From the IMG/VR virus record IMGVR_UViG_3300017917_002758, positions 1 through 33,110 of that record: a stretch of 33,110 nucleotides of DNA. The stretch is one strand, 5' to 3'. The notes beneath the pieces were generated by a model, which did no database searches, was not told where the DNA came from, and worked only from the letters and a program-made list of their open reading frames with translations. Below are positions 898 through 32,707 of this stretch, piece after piece; the first letter of the stretch is position 1; each line of letters starts with the position of its first letter. The stretch comes from a virus. The translations under genes and the position numbers were made by a program.

Positions 898-2487
898 ATG
901 GCTCAGAATTATGGACCCAATACAATAATAGATGGGCTAGTATTAAGTTTAGATGCGGCTGATGTAAACTCATACCCAGGCCCTACTTCAGTTGACGTAA
1001 TGGTTGTAGGTGGTGGTGGTGGAGGAGGAATGGATATGGGAGGAGGTGGAGGTGGCGGTGGAGTAGTCTACCAACAAAATGTTTCTGTTACTCCTGGAAC
1101 TGGAGTGCCAGTAGTAGTAGGTCAAGGAGGATGGGGCGCACCAGCAGGAGGAGGAGCATATAGAGGTGATGGAGTAGGCCCACAACCAAGTTTTCATCAA
1201 TTTACAGTAGGAGCAACAGCAGGTGGAAATTCATCTTTTGGATCTATAACGGCTTTAGGAGGCGGTTTTGGAGCTAGCTCATATTTTCAATATACCCCAA
1301 ACTATGGTACTGGTGGGTCAGGTGGATCTGGTGGAGGAGCTAGTGGATATAGTGATGGAAATACAGGAAGAGGAGGGGCAGGAACACCAGGTCAAGGATA
1401 TAATGGAGGTGGATCAGGCGGACCATACTACTCAGGTGGTGGTGGAGGAGCAGGCGGACCAGGTATAGGTGGAACAAGTAGACCAGATGGAGGCCCAGGA
1501 ATAAGAATCCCTGAAATGAGTCCATTTTACTTTGGTGGTGGTGGTGGTGGAGCCTCTTATAGTTTATCAACTGGAGGAAATGGAGGAATAGGAGGTGGAG
1601 GTGGAGGTGCAGTAGGCGTTACTACTGGTGGAGCCGGTATTGAAGTTTATGGTATAGCCAATAATGGTCTCCCTGGTGGTGGTGGTTCTCCTAATTCACA
1701 AACAAATACACCAGGCGGTAATGCAGGTGCAAACACAGGTGGTGGTGGAGGAGGAGGATCTCATTATAATGCTTTTAACCAAGGAGGAGATGGAGGATCA
1801 GGTATTGTAATTGTACGTTATAAAGGACCTCTAAGTAGTTATAGTGGAGATATTATTCAATCAAGAAATGGATATACATACCATACATTTTTAAGTAGTG
1901 GAACGTTTATGCCTGGTGGGGCTAATCAGTGGTACGATGTTAGCGGCAATGGGTGGATTGGAAACTTAGTTAATGGACCTACATTTACTTCTGCAAATAG
2001 AGGTGGTATTGTTTTAGACGGAACTGATGATGCTATTAGAATATCATCTGTTCTTTTATCAGGAGCTGATAGTTTCACAGTTAATCAATGGATCCAAACA
2101 TCAGCTGGAGAAACCGGAGGAACAACATTTGGAAATTACCCAGCAGGTAATTTGCAAATATTTTATGGAAGTACTTATATGGGAATGTGGTTAGCTAATA
2201 GTAGTACTTATGTTGCATCTCCTGTACCTTTTTTCTCTACTCCTGTTATGATAACAGCTGTTAGATCAGGAACAAATACATATTTTTATCAAAATGGAGT
2301 ATTATTAAAAACAGGAAGTTCTAGTTCATCCATTGGAAGTACTAGTGATTTTAGAATAGGAGAAAATACAATAGCATCAGAAGAATATACAGGTACAATA
2401 TTTACAACTCAGGTTTACAACCGAGCCCTCACTACAGCAGAAATACAGCAAATATATAACTCACAAAAATCAAGATTCGGATTATAA
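898..2487 (+). CDS. LamG adhesin with nested glycine-rich domain
   Basis: 529-residue probable virion adhesin. Residues 1-28 carry the leader seen in phage LamG proteins (IIDGLVLSLDAADVNSYPG). Residues about 32-312 form a glycine-rich domain that opens VDVMVVGGGG and closes GIVIVRYKG. From about residue 343 the LamG part resumes (WYDVSGNG, VLDGTDDAI) and ends with YNRALTTAEIQQIYN and SRFGL. The Gly-rich block therefore sits between the usual YPG and WYD elements of the LamG scaffold. Such Gly-rich blocks occur in phage tip adhesins, where polyglycine helices carry specificity loops. It is the first of three tandem paralogues. A receptor-binding or glycan-binding role is inferred. Confidence 0.8.
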   Translation: MAQNYGPNTIIDGLVLSLDAADVNSYPGPTSVDVMVVGGGGGGGMDMGGGGGGGGVVYQQNVSVTPGTGVPVVVGQGGWGAPAGGGAYRGDGVGPQPSFHQFTVGATAGGNSSFGSITALGGGFGASSYFQYTPNYGTGGSGGSGGGASGYSDGNTGRGGAGTPGQGYNGGGSGGPYYSGGGGGAGGPGIGGTSRPDGGPGIRIPEMSPFYFGGGGGGASYSLSTGGNGGIGGGGGGAVGVTTGGAGIEVYGIANNGLPGGGGSPNSQTNTPGGNAGANTGGGGGGGSHYNAFNQGGDGGSGIVIVRYKGPLSSYSGDIIQSRNGYTYHTFLSSGTFMPGGANQWYDVSGNGWIGNLVNGPTFTSANRGGIVLDGTDDAIRISSVLLSGADSFTVNQWIQTSAGETGGTTFGNYPAGNLQIFYGSTYMGMWLANSSTYVASPVPFFSTPVMITAVRSGTNTYFYQNGVLLKTGSSSSSIGSTSDFRIGENTIASEEYTGTIFTTQVYNRALTTAEIQQIYNSQKSRFGL

Positions 2488-2488
2488 T

Positions 2489-3730
2489 ATGCCAACATCA
2501 TCAGGACCTAGAAATACAGCTAAATCAAATTTAGTATTTGCATTAGACACGTATGACACTAGCAACTGTGTTACTCCATTAGGATGTGGTGGGTGGAATA
2601 ACAGCACCCAGGGTATAAAAGATATATTAACAGGAGTTGCAGCCTTATATCAAAATGGATTAAGAATATCTAATAGAACATTCTATACTGCATTTGGCAT
2701 TTCATATCCAGAAGGAAGTTATGGAGGAGATGCTGCTGGTTGTCAAGGATTATCGTCAGGATATAATGTTAGAACATATGGCAATGTATATGGAGCATCA
2801 CGTTCATTACATTTATGGGTTTGGGATAATAATACTAATACTTGGGTTCCTGATTCTTATTTTAGAGGATTGAGATTAGGAGGACATTGTTACGACAACT
2901 ATGCTGGTGCTGAAATAGGATGGCAAAATGAATTAAATTATTTTAATGGTGATTTTAATATAATTAAACAAGCATTTCCAAATAGTACTTGGATTATTTG
3001 TGGTTCTCACGCTTGTCAAATGTTTGACTCTACTACTATTGATAATATGGTTAGTTTAGGTGCCCCTAGATCTACTATCAGTAGTTGGACAGATGGATCA
3101 CAATGGAGAGAATTTGTACTTGTAGGAAGACCAGGATTAGGAGATAACAATGCCTATGGGTGGGCTTATGAAAATTATTCAACAAACCCAGGACAAGTAG
3201 CACATATGAACTTAAGTGTTACTCCTAGAAATATTGGTGTATTAGAATTTGATGGTACTAATGATTATATTAGTATGCCTTCTTCTAATGTATTTGATGT
3301 TGATGAAGTAACAGTTGAAGTAATAGTAAAACCTAATGGATTATCCCAATTAGGGTTTTGGTTTGAAAAAGGTACAGTTAACACTCAGTATAGTTTATTT
3401 ATGGAAGGATCTAGTATTGTTTGGAGACAAGCAGTAAATAGTCAATATACAGCTACAAGTACAATGACAAACAATGCTTGGAATCATGTAGTTGGAACAT
3501 TTAGATCAGGACAAAGAATAACTTATGTAAATGGAACTGCGAGAACATCAGATTCTTTAGTATATACTTTAAATAAAAATCAAGGAGACCAATATATAGG
3601 ATCGTACAACTCAGGAGGTTATTTTTATAATGGTGCTATAGCTGTTATAAATGTATATAATCGTGCCTTATCATCAGTTGAAATTCAAAATAACTATCGT
3701 CAATATAAAACACGCTTCAATTTACCATAA
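2489..3730 (+). CDS. LamG adhesin with ILEI/FAM3-like domain
   Basis: 413-residue paralogue of the preceding gene, starting 1 nt after its stop. The leader (SNLVFALDTYDTSN) is followed at about residues 45-245 by an insert resembling the ILEI/FAM3 (panderin-like) domain: a 'SRSLHLWVWD' strand, 'NIIKQAFPNSTWIICGSHA', 'IDNMVSLGA', then 'WREFVLVGRPGLG' and 'AYGWAYENY'. The LamG domain runs from about 250 to 405 (GVLEFDGTNDYISMP, WNHVVGTF) and ends YNRALSSVEIQNNY...TRFNLP. ILEI domains are related to carbohydrate-binding stem domains in eukaryotes, so a second glycan-recognition module is plausible. The ILEI call is by eye and moderately sure; the LamG call is firmer. Confidence 0.75.
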   Translation: MPTSSGPRNTAKSNLVFALDTYDTSNCVTPLGCGGWNNSTQGIKDILTGVAALYQNGLRISNRTFYTAFGISYPEGSYGGDAAGCQGLSSGYNVRTYGNVYGASRSLHLWVWDNNTNTWVPDSYFRGLRLGGHCYDNYAGAEIGWQNELNYFNGDFNIIKQAFPNSTWIICGSHACQMFDSTTIDNMVSLGAPRSTISSWTDGSQWREFVLVGRPGLGDNNAYGWAYENYSTNPGQVAHMNLSVTPRNIGVLEFDGTNDYISMPSSNVFDVDEVTVEVIVKPNGLSQLGFWFEKGTVNTQYSLFMEGSSIVWRQAVNSQYTATSTMTNNAWNHVVGTFRSGQRITYVNGTARTSDSLVYTLNKNQGDQYIGSYNSGGYFYNGAIAVINVYNRALSSVEIQNNYRQYKTRFNLP

Positions 3731-4845
3731 TGGCAGTAGGAACAGGATATAGTAAAGTAACAACAGACGGATTAGTATTCGCCTATGATACAGGCGATGT
3801 ATTAAATAGCTATAAGGGACAACCAACTACAAACTTAATATTAGAACCAGATGGTAATGCTAATGTAATAACAACAGACGTTCCTTTTGGAACAAATGTT
3901 ATAGGATATGCTAGTTATGACAGTGGTTACTATGTAAATCCTAGAAACACAATATCAACTCCCGCAGCAGGTAAAACCTTTACCTATTCTGTTTATATGA
4001 GATCTAGAACATCTCCTGCAAGTACATATTTAATGTATGTTTATACAGGAACTGGACCTGATGGAGGTTGGTGGTATTTTGGAGACGGTAGTCTTACCTC
4101 AGATTGGAAAAGATATACATACACAGCAAATGGATTAACAGGAAATGTACAAATAGTGACAGTGTATAGATATAATCAATTAGGAACAATTGAAATAGCT
4201 GCACCTCAATTTGAAGAAAAATCATATGCTACTTTTTTTGTAAAAGGTACTCGCTCAAACACTCAAGGATTATTAGATATAAGTGGTAGAGAAAATACTA
4301 TTACTTTAGTGAATATGACTTATGGTGCTAATAATGCTATTTCATTTGATGGGACTGATGATAGAATAAACACAGGCTTAAGCAATTTAGGTAACAATAT
4401 TACTTATGAAGCTATAGTGAATAGTGCCGGTAATGCTACTACATATAATATGTTTTTTGGACAATTATTGCCGTACATAGGTGTTTATGCTGGAAATACA
4501 ATAATATTCTCAGATAGTATAGGTGGGGCACAACAAACAATATATGGAGGGTCTTTATCTTCTAATATTAATTATCATGTTGTTTGTACTAGATCTTATA
4601 ATGGTTCTAGTTGTACAAACACTATATATGTAAATGGAGTTCAAGTAGGACAAGGAACTTTTACTGGTGCCTATACTGGTGATGCTATATATGGGAATAC
4701 TATTAATGTTGGAGATGGTGCTGGTTTTACTTGGTATCCATTTTATGGTTCTATGCCTGTAGGTAAAATTTATAACCGTCCTTTAACAGTAACAGAAATA
4801 AGAGATAATTATAATCATTATAAAACACGCTTTAACTTACCATAA
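3730..4845 (+). CDS. LamG adhesin with CBM-like jelly-roll domain
   Basis: 371-residue third paralogue. Its ATG shares one base with the preceding stop (TAATG), implying coupled translation. The leader (TDGLVFAYDTGDVLNSYKG) is followed at about residues 33-175 by a domain with the look of a CBM4/9-type jelly roll: NLILEPDGNA, 'KTFTYSVYMRS', 'SDWKRYTYTANG', 'IEIAAPQFEEKSYAT'. LamG then resumes (LLDISGRENTITLVN, ISFDGTDDRI) and ends YNRPLTVTEIRDNYNHYKTRFNLP-like. The insertion site matches that in the two upstream paralogues. Probable glycan-binding tail-tip protein. Confidence 0.75.
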   Translation: MAVGTGYSKVTTDGLVFAYDTGDVLNSYKGQPTTNLILEPDGNANVITTDVPFGTNVIGYASYDSGYYVNPRNTISTPAAGKTFTYSVYMRSRTSPASTYLMYVYTGTGPDGGWWYFGDGSLTSDWKRYTYTANGLTGNVQIVTVYRYNQLGTIEIAAPQFEEKSYATFFVKGTRSNTQGLLDISGRENTITLVNMTYGANNAISFDGTDDRINTGLSNLGNNITYEAIVNSAGNATTYNMFFGQLLPYIGVYAGNTIIFSDSIGGAQQTIYGGSLSSNINYHVVCTRSYNGSSCTNTIYVNGVQVGQGTFTGAYTGDAIYGNTINVGDGAGFTWYPFYGSMPVGKIYNRPLTVTEIRDNYNHYKTRFNLP

Positions 4846-5357: not shown

Positions 5358-8300
5358 ATGGCTAATGAATTTGTAACTCGCAATGGTCTGTTATCACTAG
5401 ATAACAGCGTAATTTCAGGATCATTAATTGTAACTAATGGTATAACAGGTTCCCTACTCGGAACCTCATCTATATCGGTTAATGCCCTTACTGCATCTTC
5501 CGCAGATAATCTTACCGTCAGAGGTACTCTTACAGCCCAAACCATTGTAGCACAAACCATTACCTCTAGTATTTTATATTCTAGTGGTAGCAATATATTT
5601 GGCAATAGCTTAACTAATACCCAGTCAATGACTGGATCTGTTAGTATTACAGGTAGCCTAACAGTAAATGGCAGCTCAGCTGTGCTAAGCAACCAAACAT
5701 CATCAACGATGTTTGTACAAGGCGGTAATAGTTTTGGATCACAAGCGTTATTAGGTACAAACGATACACAAAATTTAGCATTTGAAACTAGTGGATCCGT
5801 TAGAATGTTTGTTAGTTCTAGTGGTCTTGTTGGCATAGGTACTACATCACCAGTAAGAATTTTTACAATAAATGGAGGATCATCCCCCTCAAGAGTACTA
5901 TTACAAAATACTAATAGTGGATTTACTATTGGAAATGGATTTGATATTATTCTAGATAATTCTGGTAATACTCAAGTATGGAACTATCAGAATGGAGTAA
6001 TGCAATTTGCTACTAATAATACCGAACGTTTAAGAATAACAAGCGGTGGAGATGTAGGGATTGGTACCTCCTCTCCATTTGGAACATCATCTAATAGAAC
6101 TGTACTTTCTGTTAATGGAACAACAGATGTTTCATTAAATGTAGGTTCAGGTGGTACTCAAAGAGCATACTTATATGGCTCATCAACATATGCTGAATTA
6201 GGAACTATTGGAAGTTTACCTTTAACTTTTGCTCCTAATAACACTGAGCGTATGAGAATAACAAGCGGTGGGGATGTTGGTATAGGTACGACTTCGCCAG
6301 GCAGAACTTTGCATGTACTAGGTCAAACTGGAATTGGAACTGTTTTAAAATTAGAAGGTGCATCAGGAACAACTACATATTTACAATTAGCTTATAATGG
6401 TGCAACAAATGCCCAAAGTGGTTATATTGGTTACAATAACAGTAGCCAAATGCAGTTCTTTACAAATGATACTCTTAGAGCAACAATAGACGCCTCCGGC
6501 AATCTCGGCTTAGGCGTTACTCCGAGTGCGTGGTTAAATACATTGAATGCTTTACAAATAGGTGCTGCACATTTATTTGGTCAAACAACAGGAACAGGAA
6601 CAGTATCACTTGGTAATAATGTTTTTTTAAATAGCACACCTGCTTACATTTATCAATACAATGGTAAAGCAACGAGATATTCTCAATATGATGGGCAACA
6701 CGAGTTTTACACCGCCCCATCCGGCACAGCTGGAAACGCTATCACGTTCACTCAGGCAATGACGCTTAACGCTAGTGGAAATTTGGCAATTAATGATACA
6801 ACTACTACATCTGCATCAGGCTATAATTGGATTAGAATAAATGGATCAACTGGCGGTGTTTTAGAGCTTACAAGTGCATCATCTAGAGTAGTTCAACTAC
6901 AATCCAATGGCACAAGTGCGGGAGGGGTGCTACAAACTGTTACCGATTCTCCATTAGCATTTGGTACAAATGGTAGTGAGAAAATGCGGATCACCTCCGC
7001 TGGTAATGTTGGTATAGGTACTACATCACCAGGCCAACTTCTTCAAGTTCATGGTGGAAGTTTATTAGTAAACACTGGTACATCCGCTACTGCTTATCGT
7101 GATATAATGATGGGTGGTATTGGAGGATGGGCTACAGGAGAATCTCATGGTATAGATACTGTATATGGTGGTTCTGCTTCACCTACAACATTTACTAGAA
7201 TAGAAAGTTATTTTGACGGCTCATCAGCTAGTATGTACTTTAGAAATTTCTTTAATTCAAGTTCGCCTCAAACTAGCATTTTAATGACTATTAGAGGTAG
7301 TGGTAATGTTGGTATAGGCGTCACATCACCACAAGCTCCCCTCCATGTTATAGCGGCAAACAGTAGTAATGATGCTTTAATTCAAGAATGGAGTTATACG
7401 GCAGGTACAACTGATGTTTATAGTTTAATGCTAAAACAAACAGTTACTGCTAACGTTGTACGTTACAACTTTTCAATGGTTAATAACAGCACAGCATATA
7501 ATGATGTGTTGGTATTGGATAGAGGTAATGTTGGTATAGGTACTACATCCCCAGGAGAAAAATTACATGTTGTTGGAAAAGTAAGAATATTTGATGCTGG
7601 TTATCCATATATAGACTTAGGTATAAACACATCTAACTACTGGAGAATTATAAATGATAATCCAAGTGATACTTTTGTTATTGGTAAAAATGGTACAACA
7701 CAATTTACAATAACAAGTGGAGGTAATGTTGGTATAGGTACTACATCACCATCAGCTAGATTATTTGTATCTGGTTCAACTAATGTAGTTGGAGTTCAAG
7801 GATCAGGCAGTGCAGCCCCGTTAATGTTTGTTGATGGAGCAAACGGCCGCTTGTTTGAAGTAACAGATGATCTATCCAATTCTCTATTCTCAGTTAATAC
7901 AATAGCTGGTTTACCTGTTATTGAAGCATTTGCTAACAATTGTGTTAGTATGGGTCAATTTGGTGGACATAAATTTGAGGTAACTTGTACATCAATTAGA
8001 GGAGGTAAGTGTACATCCGCTAGTGGATATCTCACTTTTGTTGGGGGAGGTAAATGTAATACAGCATCAGGATATTATTCTTTTATAGGAGGAGGAGGTA
8101 ATAATTGCGCTACAGGTACTCGCTCATTTATAGGAGGAGGATATAATAACACAACTAGTGGAATTTATTATTATTCAACCATTGTTAATGGTGAAGGAAA
8201 CTGTTCTACAGGAGCAGCTTCTTTTATAGGAGCTGGTGTTTTAAACACAGCATCAAGTAACTGTTCTGCAATTGTAGGTGGGGCTTGCAACCAAGCAACA

Positions 8301-8984
8301 TGTAATTTTAGCACAGTAGGAGGTGGTTCAGGCAATTGTGCAACAAATTTCTTTTCTACTGTAGGAGGAGGATGCACCAATAGAGCTCAGGGAACCCGCT
8401 CTACTATAAGTGGTGGTGATAACAATATAGCATCAGGGCAATATTCATTCGTTGGAGGTGGATTTATTAATACAGCTTCAGGGTATATGTCTTCAGTTTT
8501 AGGAGGTAGAAATAATAATATTAATGGATATACTAACTCTCATATAGTAGGATCTTGTATTGGAGCATCTGCTGATAACTACACTTATGTAAATAATCTT
8601 TGCCAAACAGGTGGCGGTATATCTGATTGTCGTGTTAAAAATACTATTCAACCACTTGAATTTGGTTTAGATCATATTACAAAATTACAACCAGTTAGTT
8701 TTTGTTGGAATGGTGATGTTTCTTGCCATAAAAAATATGGATTTATAGCACAAAATGTACAACAAGCTATGTCTTGTGTTGTTACATGCAACCCCCTCCA
8801 TAAACTATCTCCATTTGGTACCCAAGAGGTTGGTGGTGTTGGTGAATCACTTCTTGAATTTGAAAAAGATGCTGTGTACGCCTCATATGTAAATGCATTC
8901 AAGGATTTGAAAGCAGAAAACGATGCTTTAAAACAGCGTATAGATATTATAGAAAATATATTAAAACAAAACGGATTACTATAA
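5358..8984 (+). CDS. Long tail fibre with S74 auto-cleaving chaperone
   Basis: 1208-residue fibre. Residues about 1-860 carry recurrent fibre phrases (GNVGIGTTSPG..LHV, TERMRITSGG). Residues about 862-1080 form a YadA-head-like array of GGG..N.ASG.YS repeats. The C-terminus from Ser1089 (SDCRVKNTIQPLEFG, then KYGFIAQNVQQ) is the peptidase_S74 intramolecular chaperone, followed by a closing coiled coil. In this family the chaperone trimerises the fibre and is cut off just before the SD.R.K motif. All 18 cysteines lie after residue 860. A patch at 6490-6785 differs in base composition and looks imported. Host recognition is the likely role. Confidence 0.88.
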   Translation: MANEFVTRNGLLSLDNSVISGSLIVTNGITGSLLGTSSISVNALTASSADNLTVRGTLTAQTIVAQTITSSILYSSGSNIFGNSLTNTQSMTGSVSITGSLTVNGSSAVLSNQTSSTMFVQGGNSFGSQALLGTNDTQNLAFETSGSVRMFVSSSGLVGIGTTSPVRIFTINGGSSPSRVLLQNTNSGFTIGNGFDIILDNSGNTQVWNYQNGVMQFATNNTERLRITSGGDVGIGTSSPFGTSSNRTVLSVNGTTDVSLNVGSGGTQRAYLYGSSTYAELGTIGSLPLTFAPNNTERMRITSGGDVGIGTTSPGRTLHVLGQTGIGTVLKLEGASGTTTYLQLAYNGATNAQSGYIGYNNSSQMQFFTNDTLRATIDASGNLGLGVTPSAWLNTLNALQIGAAHLFGQTTGTGTVSLGNNVFLNSTPAYIYQYNGKATRYSQYDGQHEFYTAPSGTAGNAITFTQAMTLNASGNLAINDTTTTSASGYNWIRINGSTGGVLELTSASSRVVQLQSNGTSAGGVLQTVTDSPLAFGTNGSEKMRITSAGNVGIGTTSPGQLLQVHGGSLLVNTGTSATAYRDIMMGGIGGWATGESHGIDTVYGGSASPTTFTRIESYFDGSSASMYFRNFFNSSSPQTSILMTIRGSGNVGIGVTSPQAPLHVIAANSSNDALIQEWSYTAGTTDVYSLMLKQTVTANVVRYNFSMVNNSTAYNDVLVLDRGNVGIGTTSPGEKLHVVGKVRIFDAGYPYIDLGINTSNYWRIINDNPSDTFVIGKNGTTQFTITSGGNVGIGTTSPSARLFVSGSTNVVGVQGSGSAAPLMFVDGANGRLFEVTDDLSNSLFSVNTIAGLPVIEAFANNCVSMGQFGGHKFEVTCTSIRGGKCTSASGYLTFVGGGKCNTASGYYSFIGGGGNNCATGTRSFIGGGYNNTTSGIYYYSTIVNGEGNCSTGAASFIGAGVLNTASSNCSAIVGGACNQATCNFSTVGGGSGNCATNFFSTVGGGCTNRAQGTRSTISGGDNNIASGQYSFVGGGFINTASGYMSSVLGGRNNNINGYTNSHIVGSCIGASADNYTYVNNLCQTGGGISDCRVKNTIQPLEFGLDHITKLQPVSFCWNGDVSCHKKYGFIAQNVQQAMSCVVTCNPLHKLSPFGTQEVGGVGESLLEFEKDAVYASYVNAFKDLKAENDALKQRIDIIENILKQNGLL

Positions 8985-9405: not shown

Positions 9406-10278
9406 ATGAATATTATATTTCAAATTAACGGTGGTATTGGCAAATGTGTGATGGCCACGGCTGTATGTGAAGCGATTAAAAAGAAGTATCCTAAATCCAA
9501 TCTAATAGTAGTATCGGGTTATGCCGATGTATTTTTGAATAATCCCTATGTTTATAGATCCTATCAATATGGGGGTATCTCTTATTTTTATGATGAATGG
9601 ATTGATGGAAAAGAATTTAAGATATTTGCTCACGATCCATATTTAGAAACCTCTCATATCAAACAAGAAGAACACCTTATTGAAACGTGGTGTAAAATGT
9701 TTGATATTCCTTATAATGGGGAGCAACCAAAAATCTATTTAACTGCTCGTGAAGAAAAATTCTTCTCTAATAAATTTTCCTCAGACCGTCCAATATTAGT
9801 ATTACAAACCAATGGTGGTGCTCAAACTGAGCACAAATATTCTTGGGCAAGAGATATTCCTTCATCTATAATTGTTAAAATAATTGATTATTTTAGATAT
9901 GACTATAATATAGCTCATATTAGAAGAGAGGATCAATTGTCGTTTGAAGGAACATTTACTGTAACTGATACTTTTAGAGCACTATGTGTTTTATTAGCAA
10001 TGAGTACTAAACGTTTGTTAATTGATAGTTTTGCACAACATGTAGCAGCATCTTTAAATATACCTTCAACAGTATGTTGGATTGCTAACAAACCAGAGGT
10101 ATTTGGTTACAAAATCCATGATAATATTTTATCAACCCCATTCACTACAAAACCAGAGCTAAGAAATAGCTATTTTAGTAAATTTAATATTGCTGGAGAT
10201 TTAATTGAATTTCCTTATAATAGTGAGGATGAAATATTTGATGTGGATAAAATAATAAAGTCTATAGAACAACAATGA
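9406..10278 (+). CDS. GT9-like (heptosyltransferase-type) glycosyltransferase
   Basis: 290-residue GT-B-fold protein resembling glycosyltransferase family 9. The N-terminus has the family's nucleotide-binding start (FQINGGIGKCVMATAVCEAI, then KYPKSNLIVVSG and NNPYVYRS). The C-terminal domain has LVLQTNGGAQ, and the donor-site segment 'RLLIDSFAQHVAASLNIPSTVCWI', equivalent to the D(S)..QH.A..L motif of GT9. It would move a sugar from a nucleotide donor onto a lipopolysaccharide-type or virion glycan acceptor; donor and acceptor cannot be told from sequence. It is the first gene of a seven-gene, almost gapless run ending at 13369. Confidence 0.75.
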   Translation: MNIIFQINGGIGKCVMATAVCEAIKKKYPKSNLIVVSGYADVFLNNPYVYRSYQYGGISYFYDEWIDGKEFKIFAHDPYLETSHIKQEEHLIETWCKMFDIPYNGEQPKIYLTAREEKFFSNKFSSDRPILVLQTNGGAQTEHKYSWARDIPSSIIVKIIDYFRYDYNIAHIRREDQLSFEGTFTVTDTFRALCVLLAMSTKRLLIDSFAQHVAASLNIPSTVCWIANKPEVFGYKIHDNILSTPFTTKPELRNSYFSKFNIAGDLIEFPYNSEDEIFDVDKIIKSIEQQ

Positions 10279-10901
10279 CAATAAATGAATGTTTTGATAA
10301 AGTATATTATCTTAATCTAGCTAAAGACACAGATCGAAATCAACATATTTTAGATCAATTTGCTAAATTTAATATTATCAATTTTGAAAGAATTGAAGGT
10401 ATAGTTTATGATTCTATACCTGATCCTTATTTATGGAGAAATTTTAATAAGGATAAACTTACTGAAAAATACATTATTGGATCTGTAGGTTGTAGAACTA
10501 CTCATATTAAAGCAATTAAGAAAGCAAAAGAAGATGGTCATAAGAAAGTTCTTATATTTGAAGACGATATAAAGTTTTTATCTAATCCTAATAATTTATT
10601 GCAACGAAATGAAATACAATTAAATAAAAATTGGGATATGCTTTATTTTGGTGGTATGATAGAACACCATTTTAGAGGTCAGATAGTAGGTGGGTATGCT
10701 TACGCAGTAAAAGAAACACTATTTGACGAAATAATTTATATGGCCGAGGCATCAGGTATGGAAATAGATAATTTCTATGCTAAAATAATCCACCATATGA
10801 GTTATAATTATAATGTTAGTGGAAGATATGATATTGGTATATTGCAACCGTTTAGAACAATAATAGTTGATGACTTCAAATCAAATATACAAAATGATTA
10901 G
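10275..10901 (+). CDS. GT25-like glycosyltransferase
   Basis: 208-residue protein resembling glycosyltransferase family 25 (LOS/LPS galactosyltransferases and collagen-type transferases). Diagnostic parts are 'KVYYLNLAKDTDRN' at the start, 'GSVGCRTTHIKAIKKA' in the middle, and the metal-binding 'FEDD' at residues 95-98, followed by 'WDMLYFGG'. The ATGA overlap with the preceding stop implies coupled translation. Likely adds a hexose to a surface glycan, together with its GT9-like neighbour. Family call is fairly secure; specificity is unknown. Confidence 0.8.
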   Translation: MTINECFDKVYYLNLAKDTDRNQHILDQFAKFNIINFERIEGIVYDSIPDPYLWRNFNKDKLTEKYIIGSVGCRTTHIKAIKKAKEDGHKKVLIFEDDIKFLSNPNNLLQRNEIQLNKNWDMLYFGGMIEHHFRGQIVGGYAYAVKETLFDEIIYMAEASGMEIDNFYAKIIHHMSYNYNVSGRYDIGILQPFRTIIVDDFKSNIQND

Positions 10902-11568
10902 TGAGTATATAAACTATATTATATCTAATACTAAATTAAATCCAAAAAATTTTCTTGAAATTGGATCTAGAGATGGAATAGATGCTCATAAAATATCTAA
11001 AAGGTTTGGTATATCTGCTAATAAAATATATTTAGTTGAACCTTATCCTTACCATATTGGTAAAATTAAAGATAATTTCCCTCAGTATCAATTATTTGAA
11101 TGTGGGATTTATCATCAAAAAGGAAAATTTAGATTTTACGGAATACACCTAGAAAACAAAGAACATTCAGGTGTAAGTTCGTTTTTAGATAGAAATGATG
11201 ATCTTTATCAACAAGCTAAAGACCTTAATGCTTTAGAAATTTTAGAATTAGAAACTATAACAGGTAAAGATTTATTAGATCAGATAGGAGAGGAAACAAT
11301 AGACTTATGTGATTTAGACGTAGAGGGAGTAACTTATGAAGTATTATTATCTTTTGAAAATGATATAAGCAAAATAAAAACATTACATTTTGAATGTGAA
11401 ACAACTCAGATATGGAAAGATCAACTTTTATATCAAGATATTAAACAATATTTAGAAAGTAAAAATTTTATAGAAGTACATAATAAACCTATATACCATA
11501 CCCAACTAGATTTAATTTATATAAATAAAACATATGGAGAAACTATTTCACCAATCATCAATGCCTAG
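10894..11568 (+). CDS. FkbM-family methyltransferase
   Basis: SAM-dependent methyltransferase of the FkbM type, commonly O-methylating sugars or lipid-linked glycans. The SAM-binding first strand and loop are 'NFLEIGSRDGIDAHKIS'; the second acidic strand is 'KIYLVEPYP'. 'HSGVSSFLDR' and 'DLCDLDVEGVTYEVLLSF' match the FkbM core (usually ..KIDVEG.E..VL.G). I chose ATG 10894, overlapping the previous stop as ATGATTAG; an in-frame ATG at 10870 or TTG at 10867 would add 8-9 residues with no recognisable content. Lies between glycosyltransferases and the sulfotransferase, suggesting one glycan is built, methylated and sulfated. Confidence 0.78.
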   Translation: MISEYINYIISNTKLNPKNFLEIGSRDGIDAHKISKRFGISANKIYLVEPYPYHIGKIKDNFPQYQLFECGIYHQKGKFRFYGIHLENKEHSGVSSFLDRNDDLYQQAKDLNALEILELETITGKDLLDQIGEETIDLCDLDVEGVTYEVLLSFENDISKIKTLHFECETTQIWKDQLLYQDIKQYLESKNFIEVHNKPIYHTQLDLIYINKTYGETISPIINA

Positions 11569-12352
11569 AGCAGGTAGCACATTACTACAAAATATACTAG
11601 CACAAAACCCAGACATATACGCTACACCAACATCAGGTGTATTAGAATTGATATTTGCTGCTAGAGGTAATTATACTGATTCATCAGAATTTAAAGCACA
11701 GGATCCTGAATTAATGCGAACAGCATTTTTGTCTTTTTGTACTAGTGGAATGAAAGCATATTATGAATCAATTACTAATAAAAAATATGTAGTAGATAAA
11801 TCTAGGGGATGGGGTATTCATTATGATTTTTTAAATCTACTAAACCCGCAACCTAAAATTATTTGTATGGTAAGAGATCTTAGAGACATATTCGCCTCTA
11901 TGGAAAAAAATTACCGCAAAACACCAGAAAAACAAGATCCAATTTTAAATTGGGCAACTATGCAAGGAACATCAGTACCAAAACGTATTGATATTTGGGC
12001 TCAAAACCCCCCAGTAGGAATGGCAATTGAACGTTTATCTGAAATCCATAGAATGGGGATTGATAAACATATATTGTTTGTTAAATTTGAGGATTTATGT
12101 TTATATCCTGAACAACAAATGAAACGAATATACAACTATTTAGGTATTCCTTATTTTGAACATGATTTCGATAACATTGAACAAGTAACAAAAGAAGATG
12201 ATGAAGTATATGGGGCGTTTGGTGATCATGTCATCAGAAAAAAACTAGAACCAGTACCATCAAAAGCAAATATATTATTAGGCAGAGATGTAACTGATTG
12301 GATTTATAACACATATAAATGGTATTTTGATCAATTTGGGTATAAAAAATAA
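11534..12352 (+). CDS. PAPS-dependent sulfotransferase
   Basis: 272-residue sulfotransferase. Residues 8-17 (SSMPRAGSTLL) are the P-loop-like 5'-phosphosulfate site, and 'ICMVRDLRDIFASM' around Arg114 is the 3'-phosphate-binding segment of the PAPS sulfotransferase superfamily. 'ILFVKFEDLCLYPEQQM' and 'RIYNYLGIPYFE' are the usual C-terminal elements. ATG 11534 overlaps the methyltransferase by 35 nt; the next ATG (11561) would cut the cofactor loop, so 11534 is preferred. It would transfer sulfate from PAPS to a hydroxyl, most likely on a carbohydrate given the neighbours, but protein tyrosine cannot be excluded. The APS-kinase-like gene follows 3 nt later. Confidence 0.85.
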   Translation: MEKLFHQSSMPRAGSTLLQNILAQNPDIYATPTSGVLELIFAARGNYTDSSEFKAQDPELMRTAFLSFCTSGMKAYYESITNKKYVVDKSRGWGIHYDFLNLLNPQPKIICMVRDLRDIFASMEKNYRKTPEKQDPILNWATMQGTSVPKRIDIWAQNPPVGMAIERLSEIHRMGIDKHILFVKFEDLCLYPEQQMKRIYNYLGIPYFEHDFDNIEQVTKEDDEVYGAFGDHVIRKKLEPVPSKANILLGRDVTDWIYNTYKWYFDQFGYKK

Positions 12353-12355
12353 TTT

Positions 12356-12787
12356 ATGATTATAGCTTTATTCGGTCAACCACATTGCGGCAAATCAACA
12401 TTAGCTAAGGAATTAGAAGGACACAATATTGATGGCGATAAACTAAGAGAAATATTCCAAAATAAAAATTTTACTCGTGAGGGCCGCATCCAGAATCTTA
12501 ATAGAGCAAGTGATATAGCTCATTATCTTAACAGTAATAACACTAATATTGTGCTATCCTTAGTTTATCCATATAAAGAGGCGAGAGAATATCTTAATAG
12601 TTTAACTGATCAAGTGGCTTGGGTATATCTAACATATGAGGGTGAAAGAGGAAGAGAAAAATTCCACGTACAAGACTTTGAAACACCAGATCAAGAGCAT
12701 ATATTACATTTAGATACATCTAAATTAACAATAGAGGAATGTATTAATAAAATTAAAAACTATGTGGGAGAAAAAAGTACACGTTAA
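12356..12787 (+). CDS. APS-kinase-like P-loop kinase
   Basis: 143-residue kinase resembling adenylylsulfate kinase (CysC), which makes the sulfate donor PAPS from APS and ATP. Visible are the Walker A loop GQPHCGKST (7-15), the substrate-binding DGD at 26-28 followed by KLR, 'EGRIQNLNRASDIAHYL' matching the family's R..N.RR..E.A..L helix, and 'VLSLVYPYKEAREYL' matching its S.I.PY...R. It is shorter than typical CysC (about 180-200 residues), and the usual lid (KGLYKKAR-like) is replaced by a short 'GREKFHVQDFETPDQEH'. Its place directly after the sulfotransferase strongly suggests PAPS supply; another small-molecule kinase activity remains possible. Confidence 0.72.
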   Translation: MIIALFGQPHCGKSTLAKELEGHNIDGDKLREIFQNKNFTREGRIQNLNRASDIAHYLNSNNTNIVLSLVYPYKEAREYLNSLTDQVAWVYLTYEGERGREKFHVQDFETPDQEHILHLDTSKLTIEECINKIKNYVGEKSTR

Positions 12788-13160
12788 ATCATCATTGCCT
12801 AAAAAAGATGACCAATGGTCTTTATTTATAGGTCGTTGGCAACCTTTACATGAAGGACATAAACAATTGTTTAGACAAGTAATAAATGAAGGTGGTAAAG
12901 TGTGTGTTGCCATTAGAGAGGTAGAACCAGATGAGAAAAACCCATTTACCCCTCATCAAATTATGCTCAATATATTTGAGCAAATGAAACCTGAGGTAGA
13001 ATCAGGCAAATTAAAAGTTATAACTATTCCTGATATCTGCTCAGTTGAATTTGGACGTGGAGTTGGATATGATATTATAGAACATATTCCACCACAAGAG
13101 GTAGCTGATATATCAGCAACTAAAATACGTGAGCAAATGAAAGCAGAAGGTAAACTATGA
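12762..13160 (+). CDS. HxGH nucleotidyltransferase (cytidylyltransferase-like)
   Basis: 132-residue member of the HxGH nucleotidyltransferase superfamily. 'FIGRWQPLHEGHKQLF' holds the HEGH motif (30-33); 'ISATKIRE' near residue 118 is the second conserved motif. Relatives attach AMP or CMP to phosphorylated substrates (NMN, phosphopantetheine, glycerol-3-phosphate), and ATP sulfurylase shares the fold. The ATG at 12762 overlaps the kinase gene by 26 nt. Possible roles are activating a sugar or alcohol phosphate for the nearby glycosyltransferases, NAD synthesis (NadM-like), or an unconventional step in sulfate activation. The motifs favour the NadM/cytidylyltransferase branch; the substrate is open. 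Confidence 0.75.
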   Translation: MWEKKVHVKSSLPKKDDQWSLFIGRWQPLHEGHKQLFRQVINEGGKVCVAIREVEPDEKNPFTPHQIMLNIFEQMKPEVESGKLKVITIPDICSVEFGRGVGYDIIEHIPPQEVADISATKIREQMKAEGKL

Positions 13161-14746: not shown

Positions 14747-16465
14747 ATGGCAGAAAAAATTTTATCTCCTGGTGTATTCCAAAATGAATCTGACCAATCA
14801 TTAGTTGAAAGAGGTATTCAAGGTACTGCGACAGCAATTGTTGGTCCAACTGTGTTGGGTCAACCATTCATTCCTACCTATGTTACTTCTTACAGTGAGT
14901 ACGTGTCAAAATTCGGAGAAACATTCAAAAGTGGCAGCTACTTTTATGAATATTTTACTTCATTAGCTGCTAGAGACTTTTTTGATAATGGTGGTCAAAC
15001 ATTATTAGTTACCAGAATTATTTCTGGAAGTACTAATGTAAGCACATATTCTAATGCTGCTGTTCCTGCTTCTGCATCTGGTGTAACATCTTTTACTCTT
15101 GAAACATTAGCTTGGGGTGATCAAATGAATAATACCTCAAGTATAACTGCTGGTGCTTTAGCTAGTGGTAGTGCAATTAATGTTCGTTGGGAAGTAACAC
15201 AAGTAAATACAGGTAGTGGTACATTTACTTTAGGTATTCGTCAAGGTAACGATAATACATCTCAGCCTAACTATTTAGAAACATGGCCTAACTTATCATT
15301 AGATCCATCATTACCAAACTTTATTTCTCGTGTAATTGGTGATTACAAACCAGTATACAAATTAGACTCAGATAATGTTCCATACATCGAAATTACTGGT
15401 TCTTATGCTAATGCTTCTCAGTACGTACGTATTAAATCTGTAACAGCACAACCAGATTCTATTGATAATAATGGTAACTTTAAAGTAACTCAATACAGTG
15501 GATCATTACCTCAAGTAGGAAGTGGTTCATATGGTGGTTCATTTGCTGGTGGTGTTGCAGCAACAAATGCTGTTCAATTGATGAATGAAAATATCACAAA
15601 TGCCAACATTCAAGGATTTGATTCAGCTTCTTATATTACTGCTTTCAATTTATTATCAAATAAAGATGAATTCCAGTTTAATGTATTATTAGCTCCTGGT
15701 ATTACTTTAAGTGGCAATGCAGCAAGTACAATGATTTCTCTTTGTGAGAATAGAGGTGATGCAATAGCAGTAATAGATACAACATTATATGGTAGTGCAA
15801 TATCTTCAGCTGCTGGCGCTGCTGCTGGTTCAACAAGCAACTACGCTGCAACTTATTGGCCTTGGGTTCAATTACAATCATTATCATTAGGTAAAGCAGT
15901 TTGGGCCCCAGCTTCTGTAGTAGTAGGTGGTGCTTATGCTTTTAACGACTCAGTTGGTGCTGAATGGTTTGCTCCTGCAGGTTTAAACCGTGGTGGTGTT
16001 CCTTCAGTATTACGTGTTGAAAGAAAATTAACTCAAAATGATCGTGATGTATTATATGAAGCAAATGTTAACCCAATAGCTACATTCCCTGGTGAAGGTG
16101 CTGTAATATTTGGTCAAAAGACATTACAGAAAAAACAAACATCCCTTGATCGCGTAAACGTTCGTCGTTTGTTGATTGCATTAAAAGACTTTATTGGTCA
16201 AGTTGCAAACAATTTAGTGTTCGAACAAAACACAGCTGTTACTCGTAATAGATTCTTATCTCAAGTTAACCCTTATTTAGAATCAATAGTACAACGTCAA
16301 GGTTTATTTGCTTACAGAGTAGTAATGGATGAATCAAACAATACTCCTGATGTAATCGATCGTAACCAATTAGTAGGTCAGATTTATATTCAACCAACTA
16401 AGACAGCTGAATTCATTATATTGAACTTCAACATATTACCAACTGGCGCTACATTCCCTGCATAA
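14747..16465 (+). CDS. 18: Tail sheath protein (T4 gp18-like)
   Basis: 572-residue contractile tail sheath subunit, somewhat shorter than T4 gp18 (659). The N-terminus has the sheath signature 'LSPGVFQNESDQS', 'GTATAIVGPTVLGQP' and 'FFDNGGQTLLVTRI'. The C-terminal domain, which forms the inter-subunit mesh, reads 'KDFIGQVANNLVFEQNT' and 'RNRFLSQVNPYLESIVQRQG', ending 'TAEFIILNFNILPTGA'. Sheath subunits polymerise around the tube and contract to drive it through the envelope. The middle (about 120-330) is the variable surface domain. The tube gene follows after 50 nt with the T4 order sheath-tube. Confidence 0.93.
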   Translation: MAEKILSPGVFQNESDQSLVERGIQGTATAIVGPTVLGQPFIPTYVTSYSEYVSKFGETFKSGSYFYEYFTSLAARDFFDNGGQTLLVTRIISGSTNVSTYSNAAVPASASGVTSFTLETLAWGDQMNNTSSITAGALASGSAINVRWEVTQVNTGSGTFTLGIRQGNDNTSQPNYLETWPNLSLDPSLPNFISRVIGDYKPVYKLDSDNVPYIEITGSYANASQYVRIKSVTAQPDSIDNNGNFKVTQYSGSLPQVGSGSYGGSFAGGVAATNAVQLMNENITNANIQGFDSASYITAFNLLSNKDEFQFNVLLAPGITLSGNAASTMISLCENRGDAIAVIDTTLYGSAISSAAGAAAGSTSNYAATYWPWVQLQSLSLGKAVWAPASVVVGGAYAFNDSVGAEWFAPAGLNRGGVPSVLRVERKLTQNDRDVLYEANVNPIATFPGEGAVIFGQKTLQKKQTSLDRVNVRRLLIALKDFIGQVANNLVFEQNTAVTRNRFLSQVNPYLESIVQRQGLFAYRVVMDESNNTPDVIDRNQLVGQIYIQPTKTAEFIILNFNILPTGATFPA

Positions 16466-31624: not shown

Positions 31625-32707
31625 ATGGCAAAAAGTAAAGACAGTTTAACATCAGTAGTTTCTGAATCGTTAAAAAAATCCTTTGATATTGACGCTTTCA
31701 AGAAATCTAAATTCTTAGATCAATCTGTAAAGTTTAAACCTCAAAAGTGGATCCCACTTTCGAAAGCGTTCCAAGATGTACTGTCTATACCTGGTATTCC
31801 GATGGGTCACATAACTCTGTTACGTGGCCACTCGGATACAGGTAAAACAACAGCAATGCTTGAGGCAGCAGTAGCAGCACAAAAAATGGGTGTATTGCCT
31901 ATTTTCATTGTTACTGAGATGAAATGGAATTGGGAGCATGCAATGCAAATGGGATTTGAAATGGAACCTGTAGTAGATAAAGAAACAGGTGAAGTTATCG
32001 ATTATAAAGGATTCTTCGTCTATGTTGATAGAGGATCACTTAATACAATCGAAGATGTAGCAGCATTTATAGCTGATCTACTTAATGAACAAGCAAAAGG
32101 TAAATTACCATTTGATTTATTGTTCCTATGGGATTCAGTTGGTTCAGTACCTTGTCGTTTGTCTGTTGAATCGAATAAGAATAACAACGAATGGAATGCT
32201 GGAGCTATGTCTCAACAATTTGGTAATTTTATCAATCAAAAAATTATCTTATCACGTAAAGAAAATCAACCATACACTAACACCTTCGTTGCTGTAAATA
32301 AGGTTTGGGTTGCTAAACCAAACACACCAATGGAAATGCCTAAATTGAAAAATAAAGGTGGTGATACTATGTTCTTTGATTCTTCATTTGTAATTACATT
32401 TGGTAACGTAACCAATAGTGGTACAAGTAAGATTAAAGCAACTAAAGATGGTAAAGACGTTGAATTTGCTAAACGTACTAAAATATCTGCTGATAAAAAC
32501 CACGTTACAGGTGTACAAACAAAAGGAACTGTAGTAATGACAGTTCACGGCTTTATTGAAGACGATAAAAAAGCAATTGATACTTACAAGAAAGAACATT
32601 CAGCAGAATGGTTACAAATCTTAGGATCAGCTGACTTTGATGTTGTTGAAGAAAGCGAAATGGAAGAAAATATTAAAGATATAATTGAAACGGATGTCGA
32701 AGAGTAA
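31625..32707 (+). CDS. uvsX: UvsX/RecA-like recombinase
   Basis: 360-residue strand-exchange protein, RecA superfamily, close to T4 UvsX (391). Walker A is GHSDTGKT (68-75) after 'IPGIPMGHITLLR'; the region after it ('MLEAAVAAQKMGVLPIFIVTEMKWNW') places the catalytic Glu-bearing strand. Walker B reads 'DLLFLWDSVGSVP'. The C-terminus is acidic (EESEMEENIKDIIETDVEE). UvsX coats ssDNA with gp32 and drives recombination-dependent replication. It starts 2 nt after the SSB stop. Confidence 0.92.
   Translation: MAKSKDSLTSVVSESLKKSFDIDAFKKSKFLDQSVKFKPQKWIPLSKAFQDVLSIPGIPMGHITLLRGHSDTGKTTAMLEAAVAAQKMGVLPIFIVTEMKWNWEHAMQMGFEMEPVVDKETGEVIDYKGFFVYVDRGSLNTIEDVAAFIADLLNEQAKGKLPFDLLFLWDSVGSVPCRLSVESNKNNNEWNAGAMSQQFGNFINQKIILSRKENQPYTNTFVAVNKVWVAKPNTPMEMPKLKNKGGDTMFFDSSFVITFGNVTNSGTSKIKATKDGKDVEFAKRTKISADKNHVTGVQTKGTVVMTVHGFIEDDKKAIDTYKKEHSAEWLQILGSADFDVVEESEMEENIKDIIETDVEE

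Follow-up and report, generated by a model that had tools for sequence, protein, structure and literature searches.

Tandem LamG genes of a virus record with an insertion slot and apparently exchanged cores within a lectin fold

Mosaicism of phage receptor proteins is known, and older work on T-even phages reportedly dealt with adhesin swaps between conserved motifs. The present analysis concerns three adjacent LamG genes in a 33,110-nucleotide virus record (IMG/VR record IMGVR_UViG_3300017917_002758, positions 1 to 33,110), which is called the window throughout, meaning the whole stretch of 33.1 kilobases with a guanine-plus-cytosine (GC) content of 33.1%. We consider it probable that these genes encode tandem, non-redundant, glycan-binding virion adhesins that have been diversified by cassette exchange within the lectin fold. 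What is new, as we read the literature, is a tandem array with two slots per protein and exchange inside a single domain.

Several described systems share individual traits with this array. In evolved Dit proteins, known from lactococcal 936 and other siphophages, a carbohydrate-binding module (CBM) lies inside a virion protein and confers a second host-binding function (PMC6669499 and the 2018 work cited there). A CBM-type module is likewise inserted into a probable virion protein in the window; the carrier in Dit, however, is the distal tail hub, whereas the slot of the present proteins accepts several unrelated modules and the lectin body itself is exchanged. No Dit family appeared among the Pfam matches of the window proteins up to an E-value of 1. 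In another instance, variable segments of the S16/T2-type gp38 tail-fibre adhesins are reshuffled between glycine-rich motifs (PMC6630733). The likeness is the alternation of conserved motifs with reshuffled segments, giving chimeric adhesins, and the Gly-rich insert of gene 1 is similar in composition. The present proteins differ in their concanavalin A (ConA)-like lectin fold, in the several paralogues per phage and in the length of the replaced segments, which measure about 120-160 amino acids for the core or 150-310 for the insert.

Smug et al. reported domain mosaicism of receptor-binding proteins, with fragments shared between otherwise different proteins, including near-identical N-termini with exchanged C-terminal domains (Smug et al., 2023; PMC10684548). 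Here, by contrast, the switch falls within one lectin fold, conserved sequence stands on both sides of it, and each protein has two variable positions; a text search of PMC10684548 returned no LamG or concanavalin case. The same lectin fold occurs in LamG/ConA-like virion structural proteins of the cyanophages S-PM2 and S-SKS1 and of an "uncultured Caudovirales phage" (A0A6J5NRD5), for which the literature searched holds no description of a slot or of exchange. Nor was this slot or exchange described in our literature searches, which covered few subscription papers. As we read them, none of the evolved Dit proteins, gp38 and the mosaic receptor-binding proteins has, in tandem gene sets, both a slot with many occupants and a carrier fold that is itself exchanged.

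An insertion slot within the lectin fold

An earlier note, made from the letters of the window, had proposed three tandem LamG genes at 898-4845 with a common leader and tail. Open reading frames lie at exactly these coordinates (Table 1), and Laminin_G_3 scores 51, 77 and 44 bits in proteins 1, 2 and 3, in each case above the curated cut-off of 27.6. Viral contigs contain about 40 distinct insert-free relatives of about 220 amino acids, which represent the empty slot and share the consensus GLVLALDAxDxNSYPGSGTTWxDLSGNGNNGTLTNGPTF...FDGTNDYI. A compact profile built from these relatives was used to place the window inserts, and it matches leader and C-terminal tail in all three genes: columns 1-28 and 27-233 in gene 1, columns 1-23 and 47-233 in gene 2, and the leader and columns 34-233 in gene 3. 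With hhalign, the leader of gene 2 extends to column 30. The claim that all inserts share one site holds for their entry, at columns 28-32 or so in all three genes with the leader ending at column 28-30, but not for their exit; the fold resumes at about column 29 after the Gly-rich insert, at 34 after the CBM and at about 43-47 after the insert of gene 2, here called M2, so that the exit varies by up to about 15 columns. The DLSGNG stretch is lost or overwritten in gene 2. An insertion of M2 some 25 residues further downstream, judged by eye, was dropped, since hhalign gives the same departure column and only the exit is shifted.

Structure prediction, which the note had named as a check, did not yield separate domains arranged in a line. 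A contiguous carbohydrate-binding domain of 206 residues, 5hon_A, aligns over 186 residues to the AlphaFold2 model of protein 3 (residues 11-362, Z 18.9) and over 188 residues to that of protein 2 (residues 10-404, Z 21.8), thereby spanning the insert in both. As residues 240 to 404 of protein 2 number only 165, at least 23 of the 188 aligned residues lie before residue 240. Because these alignments run from the leader strand to the end, leader and core are predicted to form one lectin fold in proteins 2 and 3, with the leader as its first strand and the insert within the lectin domain. For protein 1, the profile match points to a complete lectin sandwich including the first strand. The best Foldseek match of the protein 3 model is A0A6J5NRD5 (E = 7e-19, 421 alignment columns). 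The fold search also listed binding domains of clostridial neurotoxins; these matches reflect the common lectin-like sandwich and have no bearing on toxicity.

The slot has several kinds of occupant, which the note had proposed to look for by a survey of related phages. Among 119 distinct proteins, it holds a CBM-type module in 58 (a label based on length and not on a profile match for a few last-added proteins), M2 in 15, a Gly-rich module in three and other sequence in three, and it is empty in 40. Two of the note's three module assignments were borne out. The insert of gene 1 reaches 34.1 bits against Gly_rich_2 (PF21722; cut-off 24.3), and the CBM-like insert of gene 3 is recognizable at the level of its family, whose profile matches CBM4 modules of known structure (1k42, E = 1.1e-6; 1gui, E = 2.3e-6); Pfam CBM_4_9 (PF02018) is found in 5 of 42 relatives and not in protein 3 alone. 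The third, an ILEI/FAM3-like identity for M2, found no support: PF15711 has no match in the window or ten related records even at E = 10, nor did it emerge when 11 inserts were scanned with Pfam at E = 10, and M2 has no credible match among Pfam, PHROG or PDB profiles. The fold lists of the protein 2 model, in which the module is moderately modelled, are filled by the lectin domain and are thus uninformative on a FAM3 fold. M2 is a well-conserved domain of about 215 residues, and all 15 distinct copies in viral contigs occupy the LamG slot; therefore, the arrangement is more than chance. No M2-type proteins were found in the bacterial genomes searched, and no M2 module in the isolate phage records searched. 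A scan with protein 1 found no relatives, and one candidate relative, L012, proved to be a chance match.

Replacement of cores and inserts

Protein 2 of the window is 79% identical to its counterpart in the related locus L004 as far as residue 245 and 35% identical beyond it. By tail tube identity, L004 is a close relative of the window (95%) and L007 a distant one (58%). The core of protein 2 (residues 254-413), however, shares 79% identity with a CBM-type protein encoded in L007 (L007 5192-6349), and the DNA of the gene 2 core is 81% identical to that of L007 over about 480 bases, beginning at 3248 with the TTTGATGGTACTAATGATTAT codons for FDGTNDY. The core thus appears to be of foreign origin, resembling the distant phage and not the close one. 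Gene 1 compared with L004 has a similar insert (65%) and a dissimilar core (24%), as has gene 3 compared with L013 (71% and 29%). Between gene 3 and the close relative L035, leader and tail are both 81% identical, the insert 33% and the core 32%.

The same partition recurs among the relatives. In 65 pairs with an insert identity of at least 60%, core identity is below 40% in 60, between 40% and 60% in none, and at least 60% in five; these five cores are 92-99% identical, with inserts at 80-93%. The distribution is bimodal and free of intermediates, which indicates that cores are either kept or replaced. The earlier note had envisaged an interchangeable insert slot in a scaffold that includes the LamG core. 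Its slot stands, within one scaffold and with varying occupants, but the core is not constant: with core identity below 40% in 60 of the 65 pairs, the core is usually the replaced part, and most orthologous pairs run counter to the proposed polarity. Alignment of scaffold against insert, also advised in the note, confirmed that the modules differ. In the clearest pairs, similarity is retained by the leader, which is short, by the FDGTDDY joint and by the tail, insert and core both being exchanged. A raw tally of 1051 "mosaic" pairs was not used, as it includes distant pairs in which just a short leader or tail stands out.

Two pairs illustrate the replacement. In L031/L034, identities are 100% for the leader, 95% for the insert, 24% for the core and 93% for the tail; in L033/L039, they are 86% for the leader, 37% for the insert, 95% for the joint, 16% for the core and 89% for the tail, with flanking DNA 93-98% identical. 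Past the core, the DNA of both pairs is again some 90% identical or more, which we read as two-sided replacements. Cores also have matches, at 61-84%, in proteins with a different class of insert, in several cases with a sharp switch at FDG. In the core tree, several M2 cores adjoin CBM-type cores, and empty-slot cores are the neighbours of the Gly-rich cores from L014 (100/100) and L004 (100/99); support for all these groupings runs from 100/93 to 100/100. Approximately unbiased (AU) tests rejected a single clade for the M2 cores (p-AU 1.1e-4) and for the Gly-rich cores (p-AU 5.9e-5); the tested clades were named before the core tree, and some neighbours were picked because earlier searches showed closeness. 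Within a phage, only one of 196 core pairs exceeds 36% identity.

On these observations, each gene would be a mosaic of a leader strand, an optional inserted domain, an FDGT(N/D)DY joint, a lectin core and a C-terminal tail of one strand and a helix. Leader, joint and tail would stay alike in the clearest relatives, while the insert, and more often the core, would be replaced wholesale when phages undergo homologous recombination with one another, the switches falling within the lectin fold, at the joint or close to it. In this way, the attachment frame of each array position may be kept and the glycan-binding surfaces changed, leaving each phage with several different lectins. The conserved joint and tail DNA may serve as sites of homologous recombination, a role made plausible by the UvsX-like gene in the window. 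More speculatively, the array could be a dedicated diversification system in which leader, FDGTDDY and tail act as recombination sites, lectin bodies and inserts are traded independently, and non-redundant sets are drawn from a pool shared across genera; this stronger version is possible, but we hold it only tentatively.

Some LamG proteins carry a C-terminal extension of about 120-240 amino acids (L004 7810-9555, L013 2025-3896, L025 2230-4047, L026 6001-7470, L029 2575-3780, L032 6001-7803 and L035 4186-5991), and that of L013 matches Fibrinogen_C. The extension switches independently of the body, being 81% identical between L004 and L035 where the bodies are 39% identical, and is possibly a third exchange position. 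The arrays also vary in form: L061 2-8747 holds at least nine LamG genes in tandem, of which six lack an insert, and L044 7276-9318 encodes a 680-residue protein with two to three LamG domains per chain, compared with one-domain genes elsewhere.

Alternative explanations

A number of observations weigh against the proposal of wholesale exchange. Among the collected loci, no close donor exists for the core of protein 1 (best match about 35%) or of protein 3 (about 46%), and the AlphaFold2 model of protein 2 is of moderate quality (predicted local distance difference test (pLDDT) 68.1, predicted template modelling score (pTM) 0.60). In more distant pairs, the leader and tail are themselves just 40-60% alike. 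The 65 pairs are phylogenetically non-independent, the loci were gathered by searches that favour conserved parts of the inserts, M2 above all, and of protein 3, and the relatives are metagenomic contigs except for the immuto phages. Moreover, the core appears not always to be the swapped part. In L026/L030, the leader is 94% and the core 95% identical while the insert has changed (40%); in the second gene of L033/L039, the values are 91%, 87% and 54%; and in L013/L014, it is the leader that has changed (48%) and the core that is kept (92%). The first two of these pairs, together with the existence of several occupants and an empty form, are what would be expected if the LamG scaffold were constant and the insert alone were interchangeable and receptor-binding. 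We nevertheless regard that explanation as quite unlikely, as the changed core in 60 of 65 conserved-insert pairs contradicts it as a general rule and gene 2 of the window is itself a core-changed case.

The cores might instead have diverged by rapid point mutation under host pressure, with no exchange at all. Adhesin tips are often quick to evolve, and most unrelated core pairs fall in a single cloud at 20-40% identity. Yet the core identities have no intermediates, and kept cores are 92-99% identical where the inserts are at 80-93%; the cross-class matches, the sharp FDG switches and the AU tests also tell against it, and convergence is very unlikely given the DNA identity shared with L007, so that this account is scarcely credible. 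A diversity-generating retroelement likewise fits worse than exchange, and no RVT_1 reverse transcriptase was found in the window or in the records of L004, L035, L007, L014 and L038, some of which are fragments. Chimeric assembly or misalignment, to which the metagenomic origin of the records lends some footing, is a highly improbable source of the mosaics: the replacements are two-sided, with DNA identity regained past the core, the pattern recurs in many contigs of different samples, and the reading frames stay open throughout. Finally, the arrays may encode virion decoration or glycan-degrading proteins and not host adhesins. Related LamG domains belong to PHROG 8510, a family labelled "head and packaging: virion structural protein", and the top fold matches of the models include the carbohydrate-binding domain of an arabinanase. 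Pfam, however, finds no catalytic domain in the LamG proteins, the genes are located between tail genes, and wholesale surface replacement is a hallmark of adhesins; we judge this alternative unlikely. For the adhesin proposal itself, glycan binding and a tail or baseplate position are suggested by the fold, the CBM4 similarity and the gene neighbourhood, the docking and receptor binding envisaged in the earlier note are putative, and it tempers this picture that the label "structural protein" in immuto is the depositors' annotation.

Genome setting and implications

Downstream of the LamG set, the window encodes an S74 tail fibre, a glycosyltransferase of family 25, a sulfotransferase, an adenosine 5'-phosphosulfate (APS)-kinase-like protein, tail sheath and tail tube, and further on a baseplate hub, endonuclease VII, a single-stranded DNA-binding protein and a UvsX-like recombinase (Table 1). 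Of the named relatives found, Flavobacterium phage immuto is the nearest; its tail tube is 66% identical to that of the window, and it has three LamG genes between tail fibres and sheath, two of the three bearing the label mentioned above.

Table 1. Coordinates of the LamG genes, their parts and selected neighbours in the window
Feature	Position	Strand	Evidence
LamG protein 1, Gly-rich insert, 529 amino acids	898..2487	+	Open reading frame; C-terminal Laminin_G_3 (PF13385, Pfam) E 2e-13; Gly_rich_2 E 4e-8
Leader of protein 1, predicted first lectin-fold strand	898..981	+	Compact-profile columns 1-28
Gly-rich insert of protein 1, about 310 amino acids, edges approximate	982..1911	+	GC 46.8% vs window 33.1%
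Remaining LamG fold of protein 1; with LDGTDD anchor (2014) and tail (2416 onwards)	1912..2487	+	Compact-profile columns 27-233; motif positions
LamG protein 2, M2 insert, 413 amino acids	2489..3730	+	Open reading frame; C-terminal Laminin_G_3 E 2e-21
Leader of protein 2	2489..2578	+	Columns 1-30 (profile and hhalign)
Module M2 of protein 2, about 215 amino acids ("ILEI/FAM3-like" in the earlier note)	2576..3223	+	Family profile aligns residues 30-245
Apparently exchanged LamG core of protein 2, from FDGTNDY codons (TTTGATGGTACTAATGATTAT)	3248..3655	+	Identity to L007
Tail of protein 2 (YNRALS...KTRFNLP)	3656..3730	+	
LamG protein 3, CBM4-type insert, 371 amino acids	3730..4845	+	Open reading frame; C-terminal Laminin_G_3 E 2e-11; AlphaFold2 pLDDT 82.6, pTM 0.82
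Leader of protein 3; strand 15-20, pLDDT about 90	3730..3831	+	Profile; AlphaFold2 model
CBM4-type insert of protein 3; strands 59-162	3832..4272	+	AlphaFold2 model; family profile matches CBM4 structures
Remaining LamG fold of protein 3; with FDGTDD anchor (4345) and tail (4771 onwards)	4273..4845	+	Compact-profile columns 34-233
Neighbouring tail fibre with C-terminal endosialidase-type chaperone	5358..8984	+	Peptidase_S74 E 8e-11; PHROG tail fibre E 7e-46
Tail sheath and tail tube genes (baseline for phage relatedness)	14747..17001	+	
UvsX-like recombinase, possible exchange agent	31625..32707	+	PHROG 97 E 1.5e-14

The glycosyltransferase, sulfotransferase and APS-kinase-like genes occupy 10275-13160, between tail fibre and sheath. 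The kinase profile phrog_10255 is spread over two open reading frames in different frames (12356-12787 for profile positions 2-95 and 12762-13160 for 134-229), which suggests that the kinase-like gene is split or frameshifted. The window sheath (14747-16465) has 572 amino acids, and the sheath frames in the records of L004, L035, L038, L026 and L039 have 709-723 and align in pieces, as if about 140-150 amino acids were inserted in the N-terminal third of the window sheath. In the L007 record (G011:C1:23362-26875), a pair of neighbouring genes resembles tail sheaths, with identities of 54% and 49% to the window sheath.

In this array, parts with a probable role in host recognition have been exchanged in nature within a single fold, with donor and recipient lineages both visible, and its separately conserved leader, joint and tail mark natural points of module exchange. 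If the proteins do bind glycans, pairs of the L031/L034 type, which differ almost only in the core, would test the determinants of host recognition in phages of aquatic Bacteroidota.

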